Source: an uncultured Pseudohongiella sp. (GTDB taxonomy: Bacteria > Pseudomonadota > Gammaproteobacteria > Pseudomonadales > Pseudohongiellaceae). From it: a stretch of 64,000 nt of DNA. This document shows, piece after piece, positions 8,185 through 52,932 of this stretch. The translations under genes and the position numbers were made by a program. Every line of letters begins with the position of its first letter. Position 1 is the first letter of the stretch. Under the pieces are notes generated by a model. The model was not told where the DNA came from, made no database searches, and saw nothing but the letters and a program-made list of their open reading frames with translations. The DNA lies in contig OX638323.1 in the NCBI GenBank assembly GCA_951812715.1, forward strand, positions 682,001-746,000, read 5' to 3'.

Positions 8185-8370
8185 GGATCGGTCGTGCCGA
8201 TCATGGCGCGATTACGGCGGTTTCGCCAGTTCCCTGTCGTCGGTCCAGCCACCGGGCGTTGCCCGGTGTCGTTGGGTCCGCGCACGAAGCTGCGCTTGGT
8301 AAACGCTTGCTCTCGCTGGCGAGCCGTCCGGGCCTCAAAGCGTTGCTTCATCGGCTGCGCCGAGCGGCCC
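8185..8370 (-). repeat. Gene-end structured repeat element, copy A
   Basis: This copy lies on the minus strand and starts just after the ispH stop codon (8371). It opens with TCGGC-gca-GCCGA (8363-8351), then AAGC/GCTT, a long middle block with AAGC/GCTT, and hairpin 2 as CCGGGC-gtt-GCCCGG (8252-8266). Next come GGTGGCTGGACCG and GGCGAAACC, and it ends near CGCGCCATGATCGGCA. It aligns block by block with copies B and C. It fills most of the convergent valS/ispH gap. A further hairpin CGCGG/CCGCG follows valS at 8150-8162. Confidence 0.8.
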
Positions 8371-9375
8371 TCACTCGCGCAGGCCGGCGGGCATGCTGAA
8401 GGAGACTTCTTCCCTGACGCCGTCGAGTTCTTCCACTCGGGAGGCTCCGCGCTCGCGCAGAAAAAGGACGACTTCCCGCACCAGCAATTCCGGCGCCGAG
8501 GCGCCGGCGGTCACGCCGATGCGGGTTTTGCCTTCCAGCCAACCCGGATCAATGGCGGCGGCGTCCTGGATCAGATAGGCTTCGCAGCCAAGCCGTTCGG
8601 CCAATTCACGCAGGCGGCTGGAGTTTGAACTGTTGCGGGCGCCGACCACCAGGATCAAGTCGCATTCGAGCGCCATCTGCTTGACCGCGTCCTGCCGGTT
8701 CTGCGTGGCGTAGCAGATATCGCTCTTGCGCGGCCCCTTGATCCGGGGAAAGCGCATTCGCAGGGTCTCGATGATCCGCTCGCAATCGTCAACCGACAAG
8801 GTGGTCTGGGTAACATAGCTAAGCCGCGCGGGGTTTCTCACTCGCAATGCAAGCGCGTCCTCCAGGGTTTCGACCAGATAGATGCCGCCGCCGGCGCTGG
8901 CGTCGAAATTGCCTATCGTGCCTTGCACTTCCGGATGGTTGGCATGACCGATCAAGATACATTCTTCCCCCTTGCGGCCGGACCTGGCGACTTCCATATG
9001 CACCTTCGTCACCAGCGGACAGGTTGCGTCGAACACCTGGAAGCCGCGCTCGGCGGCGTCTCTGCGAATCTGTCTGGCGACGCCATGGGCGCTGAATATG
9101 ACGATAGGAGCGCGGCCGGTGGCATCGGAGTCGGGAATTTCCTCCAGTTCCTCGACGAAAATGGCGCCCTGTTCCCTGAGTTCTCCGACCACGTGGCGGT
9201 TATGCACGATTTCATGGCGTACGTAGACCGGCGCGCCGAATAGCTCAATCGCCCGTTTGACCACGTCGATGGCGCGATCTACCCCGGCGCAGAATCCCCG
9301 CGGATTGGCCAGCTTGATGTCACTGCCGGACGCGGCGGCGGAATCGGGGCCTATGGTTGATGCCGATATGTCCAT
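8371..9375 (-). CDS. ispH: 4-hydroxy-3-methylbut-2-enyl diphosphate reductase
   Basis: A 334-residue iron-sulfur enzyme carrying out the last step of the MEP isoprenoid pathway, making IPP and DMAPP. The three cluster-binding cysteines appear in [25 protein letters not shown] and [16 protein letters not shown] and the serine-asparagine stretch [11 protein letters not shown] are also diagnostic. The first 20 residues before KLANPRG are an extension without family counterparts, but the ATG at 9375 is the only good start. It is the last gene of the ribF-ileS-fkpB-ispH block, four bases after fkpB. Confidence 0.96.
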
Positions 9376-22010: not shown

Positions 22011-23321
22011 ATGAAATCGAAATCCTTGCCTGCCATCAGTCCTGCCGCGCTGGCGCTGGCCTTGGCGCTGTTTCCCGGTCTGGCGCTGGCCCAGAACGGC
22101 CTGAACGGCGCCAATACTTCCTGGATTCTGACCTCAACCGCCCTCGTACTGTTCATGACCTTGCCGGGCCTGTCACTGTTCTATGCTGGACTGGTACGCG
22201 CCAAGAACGTCCTGTCGGTGCTGATGCAATGTTTCTCCATTGCTGTCGTCATTTCCATCGTCTGGCTGCTGGTCGGCTACAGCATCGCCTTCGGTCCGTC
22301 CGAATCCGCCTGGTGGGGCGGCCTCGGCAAGGCCTTCTTCAGCGGAGTCGGCGTGGATTCGCTTGCCGGGGATATCCCAGAAACCGTTTTCGCCGCGTTC
22401 CAGATGACATTCGCCATCATCACCCCGGCGCTGATCGTCGGCGCTTTCGTCGAACGCATCAAATTTTGTTCCATGCTTGCCTTTACCGTGTTGTGGGCTC
22501 TGCTGGTGTACTTTCCGGTGGCCAACTGGGTCTGGGGCGGCGGCTGGCTAGGCCAGATGGGGCTGATCGATTTCGCCGGCGGCACGGTAGTGCATCTGAC
22601 GGCCGGCGTGGCGGCGCTGGTGCTGGCGCTCGAACTCGGCAAGCGTGACGGTTTCCTCACTTCTTCGGTAGTGCCGCATAACCTGACCATGAGCTTTACC
22701 GGCGCCGCCATGTTGTGGGTGGGCTGGTTCGGCTTCAATGCCGGCAGCGCGCTGGCCGCCGACGGCGCCGCGGGCATGGCGCTATATGTCACGCATACCT
22801 CCGCCGCGGCGGGTGCGCTGACCTGGATGGCGCTGGACTGGTTCAAGTTCGGCAAGGCCAGCGGCCTTGGGGCGATCACCGGCATGGTGGCGGGCCTGGC
22901 GACGATCACTCCCGCGGCTGGTTCGGTCGGCCCAATGGGCGGCCTGCTATTGGGACTGATCGGCGGCGTGATCTGCTATTTCGTCACCATCTACATGAAG
23001 CAGCGCCTGAAAATAGACGACTCCCTTGATGTATTCCCGGTGCATGGCATCGGCGGCCTGACCGGTACGCTGCTCGCCGCGGTGCTGGTGTCCGGCGGCC
23101 TGGGCGTGTTCAGCGGCGCCGGCATGCCCGATGGCATGACCATGGGTTCCCAGTTCGTCGTCCAGCTTATCGGCGTGGTCTCGATCGGTCTCTATACCGG
23201 TGTCCTGACCTGGATCATCGTCAAGATCGTCTCGGCGGTCATGGGGCTGCGCATCAGCGCCGACGAGGAACAGGTCGGACTCGACATCACCGAGCACGAC
23301 GAGAAAGGTTATTCGATGTAG
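22011..23321 (+). CDS. amtB: Ammonium transporter
   Basis: A 436-residue Amt/Rh protein with a cleavable signal peptide (AALALALALFPGLALAQ) and eleven membrane segments. Conserved blocks include MTLPGLSLFYAGLVRAKN, DFAGGTVVHLTAG (first channel histidine), FGFNAGSALAADG and DVFPVHGIGGLTGTLL (second histidine). It conducts ammonium across the inner membrane as a trimer. The C-terminal LRISADEEQVGLDITEHDEKGYS tail binds GlnK. It is co-transcribed with glnK; copy E of the gene-end repeat follows the stop by 20 bp. Confidence 0.96.
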   Translation: MKSKSLPAISPAALALALALFPGLALAQNGLNGANTSWILTSTALVLFMTLPGLSLFYAGLVRAKNVLSVLMQCFSIAVVISIVWLLVGYSIAFGPSESAWWGGLGKAFFSGVGVDSLAGDIPETVFAAFQMTFAIITPALIVGAFVERIKFCSMLAFTVLWALLVYFPVANWVWGGGWLGQMGLIDFAGGTVVHLTAGVAALVLALELGKRDGFLTSSVVPHNLTMSFTGAAMLWVGWFGFNAGSALAADGAAGMALYVTHTSAAAGALTWMALDWFKFGKASGLGAITGMVAGLATITPAAGSVGPMGGLLLGLIGGVICYFVTIYMKQRLKIDDSLDVFPVHGIGGLTGTLLAAVLVSGGLGVFSGAGMPDGMTMGSQFVVQLIGVVSIGLYTGVLTWIIVKIVSAVMGLRISADEEQVGLDITEHDEKGYSM

Positions 23322-23341
23322 GTTAAGGGAGGTGAGGTCCG

Positions 23342-23454
23342 GTCGGCGAAGCCGACAAAAAGCTCAGCTTTTTGAGGGCCGAGCGGCTTGCCAGGAATGG
23401 CAAGCCCGGGGGTTGGAGAAATCACAAAAGTCGCGCCAAGGACGGCATGCGCAA
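23342..23454 (+). repeat. Gene-end structured repeat element, copy E (short form)
   Basis: The element starts 20 bp after the amtB stop with GTCGGC-gaa-GCCGAC (23342-23356). Hairpin 1 is AAAAAGCT/AGCTTTTT (23357-23373), which with its T run could end transcription. Hairpin 2 is CTTGCC/GGCAAG (23387-23404). It then has a GGTTGGAG block and a tail CGCCAAGGACGGCATG. The middle block of copies A-C is missing. The tail reaches the convergent TonB receptor stop codon at 23456. Confidence 0.8.
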
Positions 23455-31391: not shown

Positions 31392-31582
31392 CATGGGTGT
31401 CCCATCATCTTCTCGTGGATGTCCCATCGTCTTCCATGGGTGTCCCATTATCTTCTCGTGGATGTTCCATCGTCTCCCATGGGTGTCCCATCGTCTCCAC
31501 TCGTGGGTGTCCCATCGTCTGCCATCGTCTTGAGCCCTCGTCTCCGTCTTGGTGTTTCATCCTGGATATCCCAACGTCTTGC
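31392..31582. repeat. 43-bp tandem repeat made of alternating 23- and 20-bp subunits
   Basis: Three units begin at 31392, 31435 and 31478, each made of CATGGGTGTCCCATC plus TTCTC and GTGGATGTCCCATCGTCT-type halves. A degenerate fourth copy extends to about 31582. ATGGG-tgt-CCCAT is itself a small hairpin and occurs in each unit, so a transcript could fold in alternative registers. It occupies the divergent 415-bp gap between the GNAT gene and regB, where no other gene is seen. The period is not a multiple of three, so a repeated peptide is unlikely. Confidence 0.85.
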
Positions 31583-39017: not shown

Positions 39018-42000
39018 ATGAAATACATCGATGCAGCCGTCGCCAGATCGCGCACCACGCTGACCGCATTCGCGGCGATCATGCTTACCGGGTTCGCCTG
39101 CTATCTGGCGATTCCCGTGGAATTGAACCCGGATGTGCAGGTTCCGATCATCGTCACCACGGTCATACACGAAGGCATTTCGCCGGAAGATTCCGAACGT
39201 CTGATTGCAAAGCCGGTGGAAGTCGAACTCAAGGCGCTCGACGGCATCACCGAGTACACCACGTTCTCAAGCGAGAACGCGGCTACCGTCGTGGCCGAGT
39301 TCGACATCGACATGGATTCACAGGCCGCGCTCAACGAACTGCGCGAGGCCATCGACCGCGCCAAGGTCTGGTTTCCGCCGGATACTGAAGAACCGATCAT
39401 CCAGGAAGTGTCCGCGGCCGGCGTGCCGGCGGTGAACATCGTCATTACCGGCGATGGCGTACCCGAACGGACGCTGTTGCGCATTGCCGAGGAATTGCAG
39501 AGCCGCATCGAAATTCTGCCCGAAGTGCTGGAAGCCCAGATGGTCGGCAACCGGGAAGAATTGATGGAAGCCATCATCGACCCGAACAAGCTGGAGACCT
39601 ACGGTTTTCCCAGCACGATCATCGGCCAGGCAGTACTCGGCAACAACCGCCTGATCCCGGCGGGTCAGGTCGACACCGGCAGCGGCAGTTTCTCGATCAA
39701 GGTGCCGGGCCTGATCGAGGACCCGAATGACCTGTTCGACCTGCCGCTGGTATCCAATGATCTCGGCGTGCTTACCGTGGGCGATGTTGCCAGCGTACGG
39801 CGTACATTCAAGGACGCCACCCGCTTCTCTTACGCCAACGGCTTGCAGTCGATCTCGCTCAACGTAATGAAACGCAAGGGGGCGAACCTGGTCGAGGCGA
39901 TGGCAGCGATCGACGAGGTGGTCGAAGAAATCCGGCCCCAGTTGCCGCCGGCGGTGACGGTCGCCTACATCAACAATACCGCTCCGCTCGTGCTCGAGCA
40001 GAACATGGGACTGCAAGGCAACATGGCAACGGCCATGGCGCTGGTGCTGATCGTGGTGATTGCCGCGGTCGGCGTCCGCTCGGGATTGCTCGTGACCCTG
40101 GCCGTTCCGTTCTCGTTTTTCTTCGCCTTCATCATCATCACCCTTATGGGATTCACCTATAATTTCATGGTGATATTCGGACTGCTGCTCGGACTCGGCA
40201 TGCTAATCGACGGGGCCATCGTGCTCGTGGAATTCGCCGACCGCAAGATGGCCGAGGGTTTGAACAGCCGCGAGGCGTACAAGGCCGCCGTGGAACGCAT
40301 GTTCTGGCCGATCACGGCATCGACGGCAACGACGCTGGCGGCTTTCCTGCCGATCATGTTCTGGCCCGGCGTGTCCGGCCAGTTCATGAGTTATCTGCCG
40401 ATCACAGTGTTCGCGGTGCTGATCGGGTCGCTGTTCTACGCCTTGCTGTTCGCACCGGCCATCGGCGCCCTGATAGGAAGATCGAGCGACGCCGACAAGA
40501 AGTACCTGCGCGCGCTGGAGTCGGGCGACCCGAGCGAGACCGGTGGCGTCACCGCCCTGTACGCGAAACTGCTCGGCTTGGCCGTGCGCTTCCCGGCCAC
40601 CGTATTCGTAATCAGCATCGTTACGCTGTTTACCATCGTGGGTTCCTATCTCAACTTCGGCCGAGGCGTGGAGTTTTTCACCGAAACCGAGCCCAATCAG
40701 ACTACGGTCCAGGTATTTGCCCGGGGCAATTACTCGCCGGCGGAATTACGCGACATCATGCTCGAAGTCGAAGACCGGCTTCGCGAGGTCGGCTATTTCA
40801 AGGGTATCGTTACCCAGTCCGGCGCCGGCATGCAGATGGGAGGCCCCCAACAGACCGCATCCGATCTCATCGGCTCGATCTATATCGAGATGACCGACCG
40901 CCGGGACCGTGACGTCAACGGCATCGAGCTGGAAAATCTCTATCGTGAGGCGATTACCGATTTGCCCGGCGCCCGCGCCGAAGTCGTGCCGATCGAAAAT
41001 GGCCCACCTGTTGGCAAGGAAATCCAGCTCGAATTCTCCGGCGAAGATCTTGACCTGCTGTTCCTGGAAGCCCGGCGCGTTCGCACTTACATGGAAAATG
41101 TCATGACCGGCCTGATCGACATCGACGACACCGCGCCGGTGCCTGGCATCGAATGGGAAATCACCGTGGATCGCGCCCAGGCGGCCATCATGGGCGCCAG
41201 CATGGCGGAAATCGGTTCCGCCATCCAGATGATGACCAACGGCGTTTTCATGGGCGTGTATCGTCCCGACGATAGCGAAGAGGAAGTCGATATCCGTCTG
41301 CGTTATCCGCGGGAATACCGGGGACTTGACCAGATCGACTCCATCCGTATCGCCACGGTAAACGGGCCGGTGCCCGTCAGCAGTTTCATTACTCGCGAAC
41401 CCAAGCCCAAGGTCAGTTCGATCCAGCGAGTGAACGGCAATCGCGTGGTTTATGTGCGCGCCAATCCCGCTCCGGGGATCGTGGCGGACAACAAGGTGCA
41501 GGAACTCGAGGCCTGGCTTGCGGACAATCCGACCGTGGCGGGAGTGGACTACCAATTCCGAGGCGCCAATGAAGAGCAGGCCGAATCTGCTGCCTTCCTG
41601 ACCCAGGCCTTCTCCCTGGCGATGGCGTTGATGGCGATTCTGCTCATTACCCAGTTCAACAGCTTCTACCAGTCCTTGCTGATCCTCTCATCGATCCTGT
41701 TGTCGACTTCGGGCGTCCTGCTCGGGCTGCTGATCACCGGCCAGACTTTCAGCGTGATTCTGACGGGCATCGGCATCGTCGCGCTGGCGGGCATCATCGT
41801 CAACAACAATATCGTGCTGATCGATACCTTCAATGTCCTGCGCCGAACCCACCAGGAATGGTCGCTGCGCGAAGTGATCGTGCATACCGGCATACAGCGC
41901 CTGCGGCCGGTATTCCTGACCACTTTCACCACCGGATTCGGTCTGCTGCCATTGGCGATGCATGTTTCGGTGGATCTGATCGGCGCCGAGATCGAAGTTG

Positions 42001-42305
42001 GCGGTCCGATCACGTCGCAATGGGTTGCCCTGGCTTCGGCCATCGTATTCGGCTTGTCGTTCGCCACTATCCTGACCCTGATCGTAACCCCGGCGATGCT
42101 CGCTCTCCCGGACAGCCTGCGCCAAATGCGCGACGGCCTGCTACGCCGGATAATCCCAGGCAAACTCCGTTATGAGGGAATGGCCTTCGGCGCGGCCGAC
42201 GAAGCGAAACTTCCGGGACACGAATGGCTCGCCAAGGTGAAAGCAAGCGATTGCGAAGCGCCGGCTTCGGGCGCGGACCGAACGCCGTCGAGCTATGCTC
42301 GGTGA
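39018..42305 (+). CDS. RND family efflux transporter inner-membrane pump
   Basis: A 1095-residue RND transporter with two repeats of TM1 plus a large periplasmic loop plus five or six helices. Helix 4 reads LLLGLGMLIDGAIVLVEFADRK, with one acidic residue where AcrB has two. TM10-11 read GIGIVALAGIIVNNNIVLIDTFN. It drives proton-coupled export with the adaptor encoded upstream; the substrate class is undetermined. The last 40 residues or so (from about 42186) are encoded by copy B of the gene-end repeat and look unrelated to RND proteins: the native end probably lay near LRRIIPGK. Confidence 0.9.
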   Translation: MKYIDAAVARSRTTLTAFAAIMLTGFACYLAIPVELNPDVQVPIIVTTVIHEGISPEDSERLIAKPVEVELKALDGITEYTTFSSENAATVVAEFDIDMDSQAALNELREAIDRAKVWFPPDTEEPIIQEVSAAGVPAVNIVITGDGVPERTLLRIAEELQSRIEILPEVLEAQMVGNREELMEAIIDPNKLETYGFPSTIIGQAVLGNNRLIPAGQVDTGSGSFSIKVPGLIEDPNDLFDLPLVSNDLGVLTVGDVASVRRTFKDATRFSYANGLQSISLNVMKRKGANLVEAMAAIDEVVEEIRPQLPPAVTVAYINNTAPLVLEQNMGLQGNMATAMALVLIVVIAAVGVRSGLLVTLAVPFSFFFAFIIITLMGFTYNFMVIFGLLLGLGMLIDGAIVLVEFADRKMAEGLNSREAYKAAVERMFWPITASTATTLAAFLPIMFWPGVSGQFMSYLPITVFAVLIGSLFYALLFAPAIGALIGRSSDADKKYLRALESGDPSETGGVTALYAKLLGLAVRFPATVFVISIVTLFTIVGSYLNFGRGVEFFTETEPNQTTVQVFARGNYSPAELRDIMLEVEDRLREVGYFKGIVTQSGAGMQMGGPQQTASDLIGSIYIEMTDRRDRDVNGIELENLYREAITDLPGARAEVVPIENGPPVGKEIQLEFSGEDLDLLFLEARRVRTYMENVMTGLIDIDDTAPVPGIEWEITVDRAQAAIMGASMAEIGSAIQMMTNGVFMGVYRPDDSEEEVDIRLRYPREYRGLDQIDSIRIATVNGPVPVSSFITREPKPKVSSIQRVNGNRVVYVRANPAPGIVADNKVQELEAWLADNPTVAGVDYQFRGANEEQAESAAFLTQAFSLAMALMAILLITQFNSFYQSLLILSSILLSTSGVLLGLLITGQTFSVILTGIGIVALAGIIVNNNIVLIDTFNVLRRTHQEWSLREVIVHTGIQRLRPVFLTTFTTGFGLLPLAMHVSVDLIGAEIEVGGPITSQWVALASAIVFGLSFATILTLIVTPAMLALPDSLRQMRDGLLRRIIPGKLRYEGMAFGAADEAKLPGHEWLAKVKASDCEAPASGADRTPSSYAR

Positions 42306-42367
42306 CCGGGCCGGCGAGACTGGAGGTCGGCGAAACCAATATGTCGCCGCGCCATGGATGGCATGAC
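42186..42367 (+). repeat. Gene-end structured repeat element, copy B
   Basis: This copy overlaps the 3' end of the RND gene and supplies its stop codon (42303-42305). Blocks: TCGGC-gcg-GCCGA (42187-42199), GAAG/CTTC (42201-42213), CGAAGC/GCTTCG in the middle block, hairpin 2 as GAGC-tat-GCTC (42290-42300), GGTGACCGGGCCGG, GGCGAAACC, and tail CGCGCCATGGATGGCATG. Copy C follows in direct orientation at a period of about 225 bp. Confidence 0.85.
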
Positions 42368-42411
42368 AGATTTCTTAAAATACCACTCAAGCCAATGGGA
42401 AAATGCCGTTT

Positions 42412-42588
42412 GGCTCAGCCGGCGAAGCAAAGCTTCCGAGGCGCCAACGGCTCGCCAAGGATGAGAGCAAACATTTGCGAAGCGCCAGCTTCCTGCGCGG
42501 ACCGAATGCCGCCGAGCCATGCTCGACGGCCGGGCCGGCGAGACTGGAGGTCGGCGAAACCAATGTCGCCGCGCCATGGCCGGCATGA
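42412..42588 (+). repeat. Gene-end structured repeat element, copy C
   Basis: A second long-form copy, in tandem after copy B. It starts with a weaker GGC/GCC hairpin (42412-42420), then GAAGC-aaa-GCTTC (42424-42436), GAAGC/GCTTC (42479-42492) and hairpin 2 as GAGC-cat-GCTC (42514-42524). GGAGGTCGGCGAAACC and the tail CGCGCCATGGCCGGCATG follow. A further TCCGCT/AGCGGA inverted repeat lies at about 42603-42624. Together B and C fill the RND/DUF21 gap; nothing else is seen there. Confidence 0.85.
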
Positions 42589-42746
42589 ACGAATTCAACG
42601 GATTCCGCTCTAGCAATCTAGCGGAGCACTCGGTGGCAAGAATGCGCCCGCCTAAGCGCAATCACTAGACGTTCCTTTGGAATTCAAGCTTGTATGCTTT
42701 CGTGGGACTATGTGAGAATCGCGTTTCGGACACTTCGGTAACATTC

Positions 42747-43844
42747 ATGGGCCTTCTGCTCGCCTTCTTTTTCATCAGCCTCTGCTTCTCCTTTCTTTGC
42801 TCCATTCTGGAAGCCGTGCTGCTCAGCGTCACGCCGACCTATGTCGGCGTGCTCGAAAAGCAAGGGTCCCCGGTAGCGCGGGATCTCGCTGGATTCAAGG
42901 AAGATATCGACCGCCCGCTGGCGGCGATCCTGACCTTGAATACCATCGCGCATACAGTCGGCGCCATCGGCGTCGGCGCCCAGGCGACCAAGCTTTTCCC
43001 CAGCGCGGAAATCGTCCTGTTCGGATTTGCCATTGCGACCAACTGGGAAGCGATTATCGCGGTTATCATGACGTTGTCGATCCTGATCTTCTCGGAAGTC
43101 ATCCCCAAGACCATCGGCGCCAACAACTGGGAAGCGCTGGCGCCCGCCGCCGCGCGCACGCTCAAGGCAATGCTGATCGTGCTTTGGCCGCTGGTCTGGC
43201 TGAGCCAATCCATCACCGGCAAGTTGAAAAAGGACAAGGATCGGCCGGTATTGAGCCGTACCGATCTGGCGGTCATGACCGATATCGGCACGGAGACCGG
43301 CGTACTCGAAGAGAGCGAACGCAAGATCATCCACAACCTGCTCGCTTTCCGCGGCATCCAGGCAGCCGATGTGATGACGCCGCGCATCGTCGTGGTGGCC
43401 GCCGGCGAAGATACGAAAATAAGGGAATTTCACGAAAGCCACGACGATTTGCCTTTCTCGCGAATTCCGGTTTACCAGGGCAAGAACGATAACGTTACCG
43501 GTTACGTATTAAGGGATGAAGTGCTGCTCAAGCTTGTGGACGAGCACAATGAATTGATATTGAAGGATTTGCGCCGGGACATTATCGCCGTTCACAAGAC
43601 CGCGACCGTGCCCGACCTGCTCGATACGTTTATTGCCAAGAAGGAGCATATGGCCGTGGTGGTGGACGAATTCGGCGCCATGGAAGGCATCCTGACCATG
43701 GAAGACATCATCGAAACCCTGCTTGGCCTGGAAATCGTCGACGAATCAGACAATACCGAGGACATGCAGGCGCTGGCGCGCGGAAACTGGAAACGGCGCG
43801 CCCAAAAACTCGGCATCATTCCGGGTGAGCATCGCTCGGCGTAG
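42747..43844 (+). CDS. CNNM/CorC-type DUF21-CBS membrane protein
   Basis: A 365-residue protein. Residues 1-190 are a DUF21 (CNNM) membrane domain with four helices (LLLAFFFISLCFSFLCSILEA, then a conserved SEVIPKTIGANNWEALAP). Residues 195-345 hold two CBS domains (VMTPRIVVVAAGEDTKIREF and AVVVDEFGAMEGILTMEDIIETLLG). Members are implicated in Mg or Na transport or tolerance. The C-terminal CorC/HlyC transporter-associated domain is absent, a common short form. I use the ATG at 42747; the frame is open to a TTG at 42690. Its stop codon lies in the loop region of repeat copy D. Confidence 0.85.
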   Translation: MGLLLAFFFISLCFSFLCSILEAVLLSVTPTYVGVLEKQGSPVARDLAGFKEDIDRPLAAILTLNTIAHTVGAIGVGAQATKLFPSAEIVLFGFAIATNWEAIIAVIMTLSILIFSEVIPKTIGANNWEALAPAAARTLKAMLIVLWPLVWLSQSITGKLKKDKDRPVLSRTDLAVMTDIGTETGVLEESERKIIHNLLAFRGIQAADVMTPRIVVVAAGEDTKIREFHESHDDLPFSRIPVYQGKNDNVTGYVLRDEVLLKLVDEHNELILKDLRRDIIAVHKTATVPDLLDTFIAKKEHMAVVVDEFGAMEGILTMEDIIETLLGLEIVDESDNTEDMQALARGNWKRRAQKLGIIPGEHRSA

Positions 43845-44016
43845 CCGATCAAGAGCAAGGCTCTTGCCGGAGCGAAGGCCCCGCCAAAGGTCAGAACAAG
43901 CGTTTTCCATGCATCGGTATAGAGCAAAGTTCGAACGCCACCGGACTGCGTTCGGTGGCTGGACCGGTAGGGCTGGAGGCTGACGAGGCTAATAAATCCG
44001 CGCCTTAGGCGGCATG
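43836..44016 (+). repeat. Gene-end structured repeat element, copy D
   Basis: The opening hairpin TCGGC-gta-GCCGA (43836-43848) contains the stop codon TAG (43842-43844) of the DUF21-CBS gene. Hairpin 1 is CAAGAGC/GCTCTTG (43850-43866), hairpin 2 CCACCG/CGGTGG (43938-43958), then GGCTGGACCGG and a tail CGCGCCTTAGGCGGCATG. The arms differ from those of other copies yet still pair. The rest of the 388-bp gap to the TPR gene contains one more strong hairpin. Confidence 0.8.
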
Positions 44017-44100
44017 CGCCAAGCCGATCAAAGGCGCCTATTGTGATAAATTGTTACCGAAAAAGAATCCTTTCAGCCTCGTGCTAAGATAATTCCCAGT

Positions 44101-49034: not shown

Positions 49035-49130
49035 GCCTTGTTTCCCGTTGTTGAAGAATGAACTGTTGCGGAATACCAATACCACAATCTCCGGGCGCTT
49101 TCCGCCGCTGACTGGCTACCGCTTGACGCC

Positions 49131-49255
49131 GCATGCGGTATTTGGCGCTGCGTTTGGGGTTTCGCCAATCCCCCGGCCTCGCCGGCCCAGCCACCGGGCA
49201 AAGCCCGACGACATTCGAGCCTTTGAAAGTTTCGCATTTGATCGGCTTCGCCGAC
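49131..49255 (-). repeat. Gene-end structured repeat element, copy F (short form)
   Basis: On the minus strand it starts 16 bp after the DUF4159 stop with GTCGGC-gaa-GCCGAT (49255-49241). Hairpin 2 is CGGGC/GCCCG (49207-49195), then GGTGGCTGGGCCGGCGAGG, GGCGAAACC and a tail ending in GCATGCGG. Hairpin 1 is not clear. It lies inside the long VWA operon, between DUF4159 and MoxR, so it is probably not a strict terminator. Confidence 0.75.
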
Positions 49256-49270
49256 CGATCCTTACCCCAA

Positions 49271-50095
49271 CTAATGACTGAATGCGTAGATCAGGAAATT
49301 TATGCCGATCTTGTAGGCCTCGTTGGTATAACGTGTCGGATAGCCGGCGTAGAACGTGTGCTCCCAGCCGTCGCCGAGATCAGAATTGTAATTCGCCAGC
49401 AACATGATGCGTCCGTCGTCGTCGAGCACGGCGAAGATTTCCGGCGGATAGCCGGGATCGTCAAGGTTCATGTAGCCGCCGAAATCCCAGGTCACCATGC
49501 GTCCGGGTACCTGGGCCACTTCGTCAATATCGAAAAAGATATGGAAAATCTCGTGACTGGTGTCCAGTTTGACGACTTCCCGGTCAGGGAAAATCTTCGC
49601 GATTTCCATGTACATGTCGTCCAGGTGAGGCTGGCCCCAGAAGTCGTCGACCAGGACGAAGCCGCCCCGGAACATGAATTCGCGCAATACCTCGATCTCA
49701 TCGGTCGAAAAATTCGGCCCACTGTAACGGGATCCGATCGGCACCCGCTTCCAGTTCATGTAAAGAAAGATATGTTCAAAGATGCGCGGGTCGGTCAATA
49801 GCAGATAGGTGTGATTGCGGGGATTGGTTTCGATATTGGTATAGCGTTGCACACCACGCAGGAAATTCTCGTCGGAATCCGGATAGTCGGTATCCCACCA
49901 GCCGCCGCGGCGGCGATAGGAGAAGCCGGCGCCGCCGTGATTGGTGTATTGACCTCGCACCCAGGTGAATTCGGTGATTTCGTCGCCATATATCGACGGG
50001 TCTTCCCGATCATCGAAGCGCAGGGATTGCGCCGGCGCCGGCGCCGCGGCGAACAGAAGCAGCGACGCGAATGCCAATGCAGCGGCGGCGCGCAT
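49271..50095 (-). CDS. DUF4159 domain protein, exported
   Basis: A 274-residue protein with signal peptide (LAFASLLLFAAAPAPAQ) and DUF4159 hallmarks: FTWVRGQYTNHGG, RRRGGWWDTDYPDSDENF, LREFMFRGGFVLVDDFWG, GGYMNLDDPGYPPEIFAV and a C-terminal NEAYKIGINFLIYA. DUF4159 has a glutamine-amidotransferase-like fold with no known activity. I start at ATG 50095, which exposes the signal peptide; a GTG at 50242 overlaps the upstream stop by 4 bp but would add 49 low-complexity residues. Confidence 0.8.
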   Translation of the reverse strand: MRAAAALAFASLLLFAAAPAPAQSLRFDDREDPSIYGDEITEFTWVRGQYTNHGGAGFSYRRRGGWWDTDYPDSDENFLRGVQRYTNIETNPRNHTYLLLTDPRIFEHIFLYMNWKRVPIGSRYSGPNFSTDEIEVLREFMFRGGFVLVDDFWGQPHLDDMYMEIAKIFPDREVVKLDTSHEIFHIFFDIDEVAQVPGRMVTWDFGGYMNLDDPGYPPEIFAVLDDDGRIMLLANYNSDLGDGWEHTFYAGYPTRYTNEAYKIGINFLIYAFSH

Positions 50096-50238
50096 GGCAG
50101 CGGTGGCAATCAGGGCAAAATCATTACCGGGGCGGCGACGGCTTGCCGTATGCTGGCGAATTGTCAGCGATGCGCGAGCGAGGCATGCTCCACTCGCACC
50201 GGGGCCATTCCCTGAATTATCGAGGCGCATGGAACGGC

Positions 50239-52932
50239 TCACGGAGGGGGCGTTGCAGCAAGCGATTGCAGCAAGACCTGCTGCGCGCGCAGGTAGCTCG
50301 GAGCGATTTCGAGCGCCCGCAGCACCTGCTGCTTCGCCGCCATGGGTTGCCCGTTGCGCAAATAGGCTTCGGCAAGTCTGGTCCTGGCCTCGACGGGGTC
50401 GCTAATCTCAAGTTGCAGCAGGATTTCGTATTCGATCAAGGCGAGCGCCGAATCGCCGCTTCGGTCGGCCAGCAGGGCGCGCAAGGCGTGTACTTCACTT
50501 TCGTAGGGGTCAACCTGCAGCGCCCGGTCGATGTAGTAATGGGCGCGCTCGAAATCTTCCAGCTCCAGCGCGGCCTCGGCCAGAACCAGAGCGGACCGAT
50601 CGTCGTGCTGGACATTCTCCAACAATATCTCCAGCCATCTGTGCCGCTCTTCGCCGTTGCCTTCGCGATCATGGATCTGGGACAGAACCAGCGCCGGGCT
50701 CGGAAAGCCGGAATAGCTCGGCAGCAGCTCGTGGGCGGTTTCCAGCGACTGTTTCGCTGCAAAATAGCTTTCCTCCTTGAACAGCACGATGCCAAGTTGC
50801 AGGTGCGCCATGAAGTCGCGCGGGTTCTGCTCCAGCCGCGTGCGCATGTATTGCTTCAATGAGGCATTGTTATACAACTCGGAAAGGATCGCGCTGGAGT
50901 TTTCGCGGATGCCGTGGCCATGACCCTCGCCTTCGTCGGGCTGATCTTCCTGGTGCACATAGACATTGATTTCCGTCACGCGCCGCTGAATCCAGTTGCG
51001 AAAGCCGGCGTCGAACTGATTCATCGCTATGTCGAAAACGTCTCGAAAACGCTCGCTGTCATCCTTGATCAGGCCGTATTCCAAGACCAGTTCGCGCAGT
51101 TTTTCGAAACCGTAAGTCTGTTCGATATAGTCCACCACCAGATATGACTGGAAATAGGCGAAACCAAGGTCGGCATTGCTGCGCGCGCCGCTGAACGCCG
51201 CGTTCAGTTCCGTTATGGGCAGAAATTGGTCCTGCTGGGCCGCTCGCACGAGATCAAGCCCCTGGCGGCGGCCCCAATAGGACCGACCTTCCTGTTCTTC
51301 CCAAACCGAAATGCCTTCCGACAGCCACCGCGGTATGCGATTGCCGGTCATTTGCAAGGTGATGACGTGGGAGAACTCGTGCCAGACAATTTCCTGCCAG
51401 TTGGCGCTCAGGGTATCGGGTGAGATCAATGTGATCACCTTGCCGAAGCAGATGCCTACCAGTGGACCGATATCCGGCAATCCCACCGAGCGCACGGCAA
51501 AGTCCTGGGTGTTTTCAAATACCTCGATCAGGACCGGGTATTCGGGTTCGAAGTCCCACTTGGCCACCAGGGTGTCCCAGGCTTCCTCCAGCAGCGGCTC
51601 CAGGTAGGGCCAAAGGATATCCGCGTCGCGCGGCGACATGTGCACGAGAAAATGTTCGCTTTCCAGCGTCGCGTACTCATCCAGCGTATCGAACACGGTC
51701 AGCAGGTTTGACGACAGCGCGTTGAACGGATCGTTCTCGAAACCGATTTCCAGGTTGGCCCGGCCTTCGTCTTCCTCGCCGAGACGGATGAGATTGCTGC
51801 CGAGCAAGGTGTAACCGCGCCAATATCGCGGGTCCGCCGCGATCGCGGCGCGGGCGAATTCCACCGCTTCGGTGAAGCGATAATTGCTGCCGAAATGCTC
51901 GGCGACGTCCGCCAGGAAAACAGGGTTTTCAGGGCTGAAGGCTTCCACCTGGGCAGCGTGCGACTCGTAATCCGCCAGACGCTCTTCCATCGCCGCCTGG
52001 GAGGCCATGGCGCTAAGCACGCCGAGCGCTTCCGGATTCAGGTTCAGCGCGCGGGAAAAATGGCCGGCGGCGGCTTGCGCGCGGCCGGTGCGCTGCAACA
52101 GGCGGCCATAGACTTCCATCGCCGGAACGGAATTTGGATTGATCGCCAGCGCGCGCTGCAAGCTGCGTTCGTCGCCGGAGATTCGGGCCATGCCAACCAG
52201 CGCCGGCGTGTAGCGGCTGTTGATCTCCAATGCGTCCTGGTAGGACTGCTCCGCCTCGCCTTGGTTGTATTTTTCAAGAAACAGATTGCCCCACAGGAAA
52301 TGGGCTTCCAGATTCCGCGGATCCGCCCGAGTCGCTTCCTGGAACAAACTGTTGGCGTCGTGGAAACGATCCAGCATCCAGCTCGCCAGGGCGACCATGG
52401 CTACATCCGGCGAACTGAACGCCAGACCGTTGTTATAGCGGTCAACGACCTCATCGAGCAGTGGCCGGCTTGCCGCCTTGCGGCCGGTAAATTGCAGCAG
52501 GCCGGCATATTGCGTCAGCGTGCGCACCGGTGCGCCTTGCACGCCAAGACCATCGATAACGGACTCCAGAATCGCCAGCGCCTCCGTGGACGCGCCGGTC
52601 ATGCGCTTGACTTCGGCCAACTGGGTGCTGACGAGTGGAAAATCGGCGAAGGCATCGTCGATCAGATTCTCGCAGACGAGCATCGCTTCACGATAATTGC
52701 CCATGCTGGCGAGCGCCCGGCTGGCGCCGATCACGCCCGCTTGGCGATCCAGCCCGTCGGCCCGCTGGAATACTTCGGCGGCTGCCGCGTAGGCGCCGTT
52801 CCGCAACAGTTCCCCGCCGCGGTACAGCGGCGATTCGTTGCCGGCAAGCGGCTCGTCGACCTGGGCCAGCGCGGCGACCGGCAGCATCAGGACCATCGCC
52901 AGCAACATTTTCCCGCGCAGAGTTTTTTTCAT
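50239..52932 (-). CDS. TPR-repeat protein with HExxH metallopeptidase domain
   Basis: An 897-residue exported protein (signal KMLLAMVLMLPVAALAQ). Residues 35-430 are TPR-like repeats (LQRALAINPNSVPAMEVYGRLLQRTGRAQAA). The middle holds a gluzincin-like site WHEFSHVITLQ (HEFSH at 518-522) with a downstream WLSEGISVWEE supplying the third ligand, typical of Peptidase_MA. More TPRs follow (about 700-890). It may process envelope proteins within the MoxR/VWA system. It overlaps the caspase-like gene by 4 bp. Confidence 0.82.
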   Translation of the reverse strand: MKKTLRGKMLLAMVLMLPVAALAQVDEPLAGNESPLYRGGELLRNGAYAAAAEVFQRADGLDRQAGVIGASRALASMGNYREAMLVCENLIDDAFADFPLVSTQLAEVKRMTGASTEALAILESVIDGLGVQGAPVRTLTQYAGLLQFTGRKAASRPLLDEVVDRYNNGLAFSSPDVAMVALASWMLDRFHDANSLFQEATRADPRNLEAHFLWGNLFLEKYNQGEAEQSYQDALEINSRYTPALVGMARISGDERSLQRALAINPNSVPAMEVYGRLLQRTGRAQAAAGHFSRALNLNPEALGVLSAMASQAAMEERLADYESHAAQVEAFSPENPVFLADVAEHFGSNYRFTEAVEFARAAIAADPRYWRGYTLLGSNLIRLGEEDEGRANLEIGFENDPFNALSSNLLTVFDTLDEYATLESEHFLVHMSPRDADILWPYLEPLLEEAWDTLVAKWDFEPEYPVLIEVFENTQDFAVRSVGLPDIGPLVGICFGKVITLISPDTLSANWQEIVWHEFSHVITLQMTGNRIPRWLSEGISVWEEQEGRSYWGRRQGLDLVRAAQQDQFLPITELNAAFSGARSNADLGFAYFQSYLVVDYIEQTYGFEKLRELVLEYGLIKDDSERFRDVFDIAMNQFDAGFRNWIQRRVTEINVYVHQEDQPDEGEGHGHGIRENSSAILSELYNNASLKQYMRTRLEQNPRDFMAHLQLGIVLFKEESYFAAKQSLETAHELLPSYSGFPSPALVLSQIHDREGNGEERHRWLEILLENVQHDDRSALVLAEAALELEDFERAHYYIDRALQVDPYESEVHALRALLADRSGDSALALIEYEILLQLEISDPVEARTRLAEAYLRNGQPMAAKQQVLRALEIAPSYLRAQQVLLQSLAATPPP

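Follow-up and report, generated by a model that had tools for sequence, protein, structure and literature searches.

Modular, hairpin-rich repeats at gene ends in Pseudohongiella and relatives of their core beside tRNA genes

Six copies in one genomic window

Short, hairpin-rich repeats lie at gene ends in an uncultured Pseudohongiella sp. (Gammaproteobacteria; Pseudohongiellaceae). The window, meaning the whole stretch of DNA analyzed, comprises 64,000 nucleotides (positions 682,001 to 746,000 of contig OX638323.1, assembly GCA_951812715.1; positions below count from its first letter) and carries six copies at or near the ends of genes for IspH/LytB, an ammonium transporter, an RND efflux pump, a CNNM protein and a DUF4159 protein. 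The repeat is a real, abundant, lineage-specific and modular hairpin element with DNA-like covariation, a stop codon held in register with upstream genes, and relatives in tRNA loops.

A preliminary description, made from the letters of the window, had claimed six copies with one order of blocks. All six are present, the block order is common to them, and a search of the window at E<0.05 with R1, a covariance model built from alignment A1 of 27 long copies, returns exactly these six. The element occurs in three forms: a long form (~195 nucleotides, nt), a short form or alpha (~122 nt), and the middle module alone, or beta (~72-80 nt, with a core of ~72 nt). The copies below were placed by covariance-model search and the cores by the beta model.

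8190..8376, minus strand: copy A, long form (alpha with nested beta core)
8245..8316, minus strand: nested beta core of copy A
23330..23452, plus strand: copy B, short form (alpha without beta)
42174..42368, plus strand: copy C, long form
42237..42309, plus strand: nested beta core of copy C
42397..42590, plus strand: copy D, long form, in tandem after C
42461..42533, plus strand: nested beta core of copy D
43823..44019, plus strand: copy E, long form
43890..43962, plus strand: nested beta core of copy E
49129..49267, minus strand: copy F, shortened form with a different internal deletion
49187..49251, minus strand: part of copy F matched by the beta core model

The copies at 23330 and 49129 are without most of the middle module, and their deletions differ. 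Each copy meets its neighboring gene in its own way. The TGA stop of the IspH/LytB gene (8371-9375, minus) is supplied by GAGTGAGG of copy A, and the CNNM gene ends at 43844 (plus) in an in-frame TAG within the first hairpin of copy E. Copy B starts 8 nt past the stop of the ammonium transporter gene (22011-23321, plus) and copy F 3 nt past the TAG of the DUF4159 gene (49271-50242, minus). The open reading frame of the RND pump (39018-42305, plus) extends 132 nt into copy C. The lettering in the preliminary description is muddled: by its own order, the tandem pair is the copy at 42397 behind that at 42174, and the copy at 42174 overlaps the end of the pump reading frame.

Copies C, D, E and F are missing at the orthologous places in three relatives (L031, L035, L039; G and L numbers are handles for genomes and loci), and C, D and E are also missing in a fourth, L034. 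None of these places is a clean, exact empty site, the relatives, at 82-85% identity, being too diverged between genes. At 42172-42305 the C-terminus of the RND efflux pump is altered by copy C, with ~43 extra codons inside the element; by eye, the L031 pump stops just beyond the insertion point. Elsewhere in the window, three tandem direct repeats of 43 nt each (CATGGGTGTCCCATCATCTTC...) occupy 31392-31522 and have no evident relation to the element.

Modular architecture

All forms share a common frame: GTGAG, a stem with one or two hairpins, CGAACG, a second hairpin and GGCTGG. Beta often lies within the loop of alpha's second hairpin and is also found solo. The beta-core model R2, built from alignment A3 of 26 beta cores in four families, extends to many short alphas, whose 5' domain it matches (E ~1e-6 to 1e-3; window copy B falls below that list). 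Judged by these sequence matches, alpha resembles a beta-like core that carries a 3' tail, and the long form resembles an alpha whose second hairpin loop contains another core. Some solo betas sit inside other hairpins, for example between GAACAATTCC and GGAATTGTTC, and others in tandem arrays. The arms GAACAATTCC/GGAATTGTTC belong to an apparent other repeat family with beta in the loop (L221:12700, L218:4939, L222:1828, L216:16129). A palindrome, GTCATTCTGCGCG..GCAGAATC, is present in both L198:5082-5159 and L034, and the L198 copy has beta in its loop.

Units in tandem arrays are near-identical. The 5' boundary of the element is sharp, and the 3' boundary fades over ~17 nt. A satellite-like array in L226 (1833-2829) holds eight core-like matches at a regular 132-nt period.

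Pairing and the level at which it acts

Different arms in different copies had suggested selection on pairing rather than on sequence. The hand-drawn structure has 49 pairs, 20 of which are changed on both sides among the 27 long copies, giving 66 double-change cells against a mean of 19.8 in shuffled controls and 6-15 in slid structures. The core alignment (26 sequences) behaves alike: double changes occur at 10 of 16 pairs and fill 59 cells, versus 16.5 after shuffling. The covariation proposed for checking is thus far above both kinds of control, as counted by shuffles, slides and permutations. Two helices add to the hairpins described earlier. One, GGCCC/GGGCC, closes the pair of opening hairpins; the other, CTYGMC/GKCRAG (A1 columns 60-65 with 148-153), is long-range, was first proposed by RNAalifold and encloses the middle module.

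Most hairpin tips read C(GNA)G, with C(GNNA)G in hairpin Hb; for H1 and Hb this holds on the gene-sense strand. Triloops of H1 are purine-N-A in 113 of 126 cases, 91 of them GNA, and H2 conforms less strictly (77/133). GNA and GNNA loops closed by at least two G-C pairs form exceptionally stable DNA mini-hairpins (PMC4686876, in excerpt).

One explanation for conserved pairing is a structured RNA at mRNA 3' ends, a stabilizer, processing site or terminator that would keep the sense orientation. The rich multi-helix fold agrees with it, as does the similar architecture of E. coli RtT, which is annotated as RNA. The mispairs do not. A conserved RNA is expected to tolerate G·U and not A·C. In the element's helices G-T and A-C are equally common (308 vs 325 in 150 of 179 copies, in an alignment fitted to the model), versus 15 and 0 in 11 tRNAs from the fetched loci (Fisher p=2.5e-5), and because of this equality an RNA role is unsupported. 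The 14 core pairs counted in 26 sequences of four families comprise 344 Watson-Crick, 3 G-T and 6 A-C pairs. Taken together, the tip loops and the mispair pattern support folding at the DNA level. Selection on pairing is thus supported, though for DNA and not for mRNA, and the earlier suggestion of a 3'-end stabilizer or terminator finds no support in the pattern of change; single copies may still serve so.

Other observations weigh on the same explanation. By eye, no T-run follows the last hairpin in the six window copies (no dedicated terminator scan was made), and copies C to F are missing in close relatives. Rfam at gathering thresholds has no match anywhere in the window; at E<=1 the region 42100-44100 yields only mir-5729, at 23.2 bits against a cut-off of 41, and an RNA family was rejected as a reading. 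Hammerhead-like and integron attC-like readings were considered on motifs and dropped. With the placement data given below, the RNA explanation is, in our estimate, distinctly improbable.

Abundance and distribution

The window's own genome, G000 (one contig of 3,537,599 bases), holds at least 154 full or partial R1 matches, a floor reached after 150 of 3011 candidates were scored; the true copy number is probably larger. The window and 70 further stretches (843,170 bases together) hold 179 R1 matches. These stretches were picked around matches, and densities there are not genome averages. By the CNNM protein, the nearest named relatives are metagenome assemblies of uncultured Pseudohongiella, other Pseudomonadales or Gammaproteobacteria.

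Among 58 genomes searched, with at most ~43 candidates scored in each, R1 matches occur in 21 (the window's own included) and 37 have none. The richest, G000, G018, G021, G022, G030 and G033, belong to one genus and have at least ~43 matches each. G025 has 33 weaker matches, G011 15 and G012 11, and the remaining genomes have 7 at most; several matches in sparse genomes are beta alone. Farther afield, the beta core is found in 11 of 368 other genomes across the class, with 1-4 matches each (E<=1e-4). Alignment A4 holds 150 of the 202 core matches, and window copy B lies outside the 202. The preliminary description had proposed a covariance model and a wider search, with few other copies as the adverse outcome; copies proved plentiful.

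Placement at gene ends and the built-in stop codon

Gene context was analyzed for 171 of the 179 matches (eight weak ones left out), with genes predicted by a custom script; 126 of 127 clusters have genes on both sides. A same-strand gene lies upstream in 90 of the 126. Between tandem genes, sense clusters outnumber antisense ones by 51 to 20 (p=0.0003), and convergent sites outnumber divergent ones by 39 to 16 (p=0.003). Both biases favor the RNA explanation, but the end that is anchored does not: in 57 of 90 clusters the 5' end of the element is between -60 and +15 relative to the upstream stop, whereas the 3' end is in that range of an opposing gene's stop in 10 of 59 (Fisher p=1.7e-8). Placement, one of the checks proposed at the outset, is on these 5' ends and sense counts non-random with respect to both gene ends and strand.

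The offset is exactly -6 in 24 of the 90 clusters, every other offset being represented by 1-4. At -6, the stop codon of the predicted gene is the TGA or TAA of the element's GGGTRAGG block. In both genes that were compared with homologues, this stop falls at, or a few residues from, the native end, and neither protein is truncated. Of 14 homologues of IspH (copy A), 9 share its final residue position, 1 stops one residue earlier and 4 run on for 1-4. RsmB has 430 amino acids, as do 15 of 16 orthologues among those listed (68-74% identity), the remaining one having 434. An NCBIfam scan covered 10 of the 24 proteins that end at the element's stop: PstB, UbiH and PPDK extend to the profile end, and RsmB, DnaJ and BepA to within 5 positions of it. 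NhaD meets the end of one profile 17 residues ahead of the protein end, FadD stops 11 positions short of the profile end and a NosR-like match 16 short, and one protein has no family.

Gene ends may also be just the places where insertions are tolerated. Passive spread would then suffice, by template switching at hairpins and unequal crossing-over. A convergent-gene excess of the pneumococcal BOX, RUP and SPRITE repeats has been interpreted as tolerance (PMC3049150, in excerpt), and the tandem arrays of near-identical units count in favor of such a process. Against it stand the 24 clusters at one exact offset and the dispersal of copies with unrelated flanks and a sharp 5' boundary.

tRNA junctions and target context

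Core relatives in genomes other than the window's keep company with tRNA genes. ARAGORN finds a tRNA gene in 19 of 23 such loci, equivalent to 12 of 16 distinct places since loci overlap (a raw count with no chance baseline). In 12 genomes, 3 of them congeners, GTGAG is preceded by a partial tRNA copy that ends at GG, beside 15 intact tRNA genes. Five of the tRNA genes have the junction at nucleotide 19, in the D-loop and in sense; for the other ten it falls at the T-loop edge, in antisense. The partial copy matches the intact tRNA at 14-18 of 18 nt, and exact identity runs for as much as 60 nt (the longest stretch tested), beyond the tRNA into its flank. This reach into the flanks is a further point for passive spread; the recurrence of the same tRNA-loop junctions in distant families counts against it, and, all told, we consider that explanation rather improbable.

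In G298 a tRNA-Arg gene is flanked by four units on one side and two on the opposite one. In L150, L151 and L155, from two congeners and another family (G053), a tRNA-Phe 5' fragment, a core, ~70 nt and an intact tRNA-Phe follow one another. Some rows fit neither junction: G011 (tRNA-Leu nucleotide 13), G012 (weak, 11/18) and G039 (9/18). Further misfits are tRNA-Pro in G201 (a one-base shift), the D-loop rows of G298 (a shifted model start), later copies in G390 and G079 and one reverse match in G409. For G023, G055, G003, G048, G002, G416, G320, G100 and one G201 locus, no neighboring tRNA was detected.

GG stands before the core in 164 of 222 matches, a count that includes overlapping loci, and in 22 of the 41 distinct contexts. 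Pairing between the two flanks of the core exceeds that in all 10000 permutations (mean 4.51 vs 3.74); the core therefore tends to occupy a hairpin loop, though with many exceptions.

Candidate mobilizing enzymes

Three enzymes were considered as movers and set aside as unevenly present in, or absent from, the richest genomes: the Y1 transposase (RAYT), a reverse transcriptase and IS110. IS110 (PF01548) has two copies in G000 and a partial match in G018; one rich genome of the six thus carries it complete. A coding mover between two array groups, at 1048.6-1055.3 kb, was also rejected; the predicted genes there read towards the arrays at their 3' ends.

The preliminary description offered a mobile REP/MITE-like unit as one possibility. 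The mobility half of that guess fares well: copies are many, lineage-specific and arranged in tandem and nested arrays with a sharp 5' boundary. Membership of the REP/RAYT system is unsupported, the Y1 domain being missing from the six genomes with most copies. REPs are extragenic palindromes, often in more than 100 copies and in mosaic arrays, with a GT(A/G)G head (PMC2817692, in excerpt). The element shares these traits, its GTGAG head resembling that of REPs, and a Y1 domain (PF01797) is present in 26 of 31 congeners outside the rich six, including G025, G011 and G012, and in 10 of the 11 core-bearing genomes elsewhere in the class. REP/BIME elements spread by such an enzyme, later lost by the rich clade, would account for this distribution. 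RAYT genes, however, are described as always flanked by their REPs (PMC2817692, in excerpt), and eight fetched Y1 loci (L263-L270, of which L265, L269 and L270 are from the genus) have no copy of the element. Behind its head the element differs from a REP: GTGAG is followed by at least two hairpins in place of a single short palindrome, and the ~72-nt, two-hairpin core exceeds in length the REPs tabulated in the excerpt of PMC2817692. We regard this origin as unlikely.

A working model

On balance, we favor the view that the repeat is a non-autonomous mobile DNA element, hairpin-rich, starting with GTGAG, folded by prediction as single-stranded DNA and moved by a putative recombinase. Via this enzyme the element would insert after GG in hairpin loops or onto stop codons. 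A folded single strand may be the moving form, as suggested by covariation almost only between Watson-Crick pairs and by the C(GNA)G loops. Tandem arrays could arise because the end of every unit repeats that unit's target, and the built-in stop would make landing on a gene end harmless.

Several observations weigh against this view. No Y1 match is found in any of the six rich genomes; the reverse transcriptase RVT_1 (PF00078) is missing from five of them, with one weak match in G033; and IS110 has no match in G021, G022, G030 and G033. Y1 as an ancestral mover is neither shown nor excluded. No target-site duplication has been demonstrated, the intergenic DNA of relatives being too diverged. 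The loop sense of hairpin Hc is opposite to that of H1 and Hb (TNY in 80 of 101 triloops), so that no single strand has all the favorable loops; Hc would be favored on the other strand. GG is missing before the core in 19 of 41 distinct contexts, and an outer stem scoring at least 6 occurs in about one-fifth of contexts, versus 5% of crossed pairs. The tRNA control for mispairs is small, and quasi-palindrome correction could produce some covariation without selection.

A wider proposal is tentative. The element may possibly represent a new class of DNA-hairpin mobile element with a ~72-nt GTGAG core, which folds as single-stranded DNA and inserts behind GG in the loops of hairpins, whether of tRNA (D and T), of its own second hairpin or of further palindromes, or onto stops, ending in a copy of the target that keeps the tRNA or gene intact. 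The enzyme would be of a kind new to small repeats, and E. coli RtT would be a long-known but unrecognized member. The idea unites three seemingly separate things: gene-end repeats, tandem tRNA-end repeats such as RtT, and nested hairpin modules. If it is true, the problem of landing on a gene is solved by a stop codon carried where the 5' end meets the gene, and that of landing on a tRNA by ending in a copy of the tRNA end. The target of a search is then a hairpin-loop enzyme, as Y1, reverse transcriptase and IS110 fail to account for the richest genomes. The count of G·T versus A·C mispairs provides a cheap general test for DNA- or RNA-level covariation in repeats.

Comparison with known systems

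The element is not a demonstrated member of the REP, MITE, BOX or RtT families. A literature search by titles and the first lines of abstracts returned nothing on this family, which is no proof of absence from print. Of MITE traits, no terminal inverted repeat is seen by eye in the alignments, and relatives gave no clean empty site. REP/BIME elements differ in that the present element has nesting, tRNA anchoring and a richest group of genomes without Y1. Published repeats also include E. coli TRIP1 (PMC10888264).

Pneumococcal BOX repeats, compared by description, are modular small repeats with an optional central module, stem-loops and an excess at convergent genes (PMC3049150, in excerpt), all of which the element shares. 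Unlike BOX, its central module resembles the outer unit's own core and also occurs solo in other hairpins.

The RtT repeats of the E. coli tyrT locus (Rfam RF00391) come close by eye. They are tandem units beside tRNA-Tyr, each with a copy of the tRNA 3' end. Their core starts GGGGAAGG^GTGAG or ^ATGAG, at the same antisense T-arm place as the element core, and they share the CGAGCG block and C(GCA)G or C(ACA)G hairpins. As a detectable homologue, RtT was rejected: the Rfam model has four matches in E. coli L313, and the beta model has none there even at E=10. Conversely, no RtT match above the gathering score is found in the window or seven core-bearing loci. The RtT-type trait, a tandem unit carrying the end of a neighboring tRNA, is seen in the core relatives of other genomes, whereas the studied copies of the window's genome lie at gene ends.

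tRNA-targeted integrative elements lie between an intact tRNA and a duplicate of a tRNA end. The core loci share this arrangement of duplicated end and intact tRNA, but with units of ~110-200 nt, which leave no room for an integrase, and with use of the D-loop besides the T-loop.

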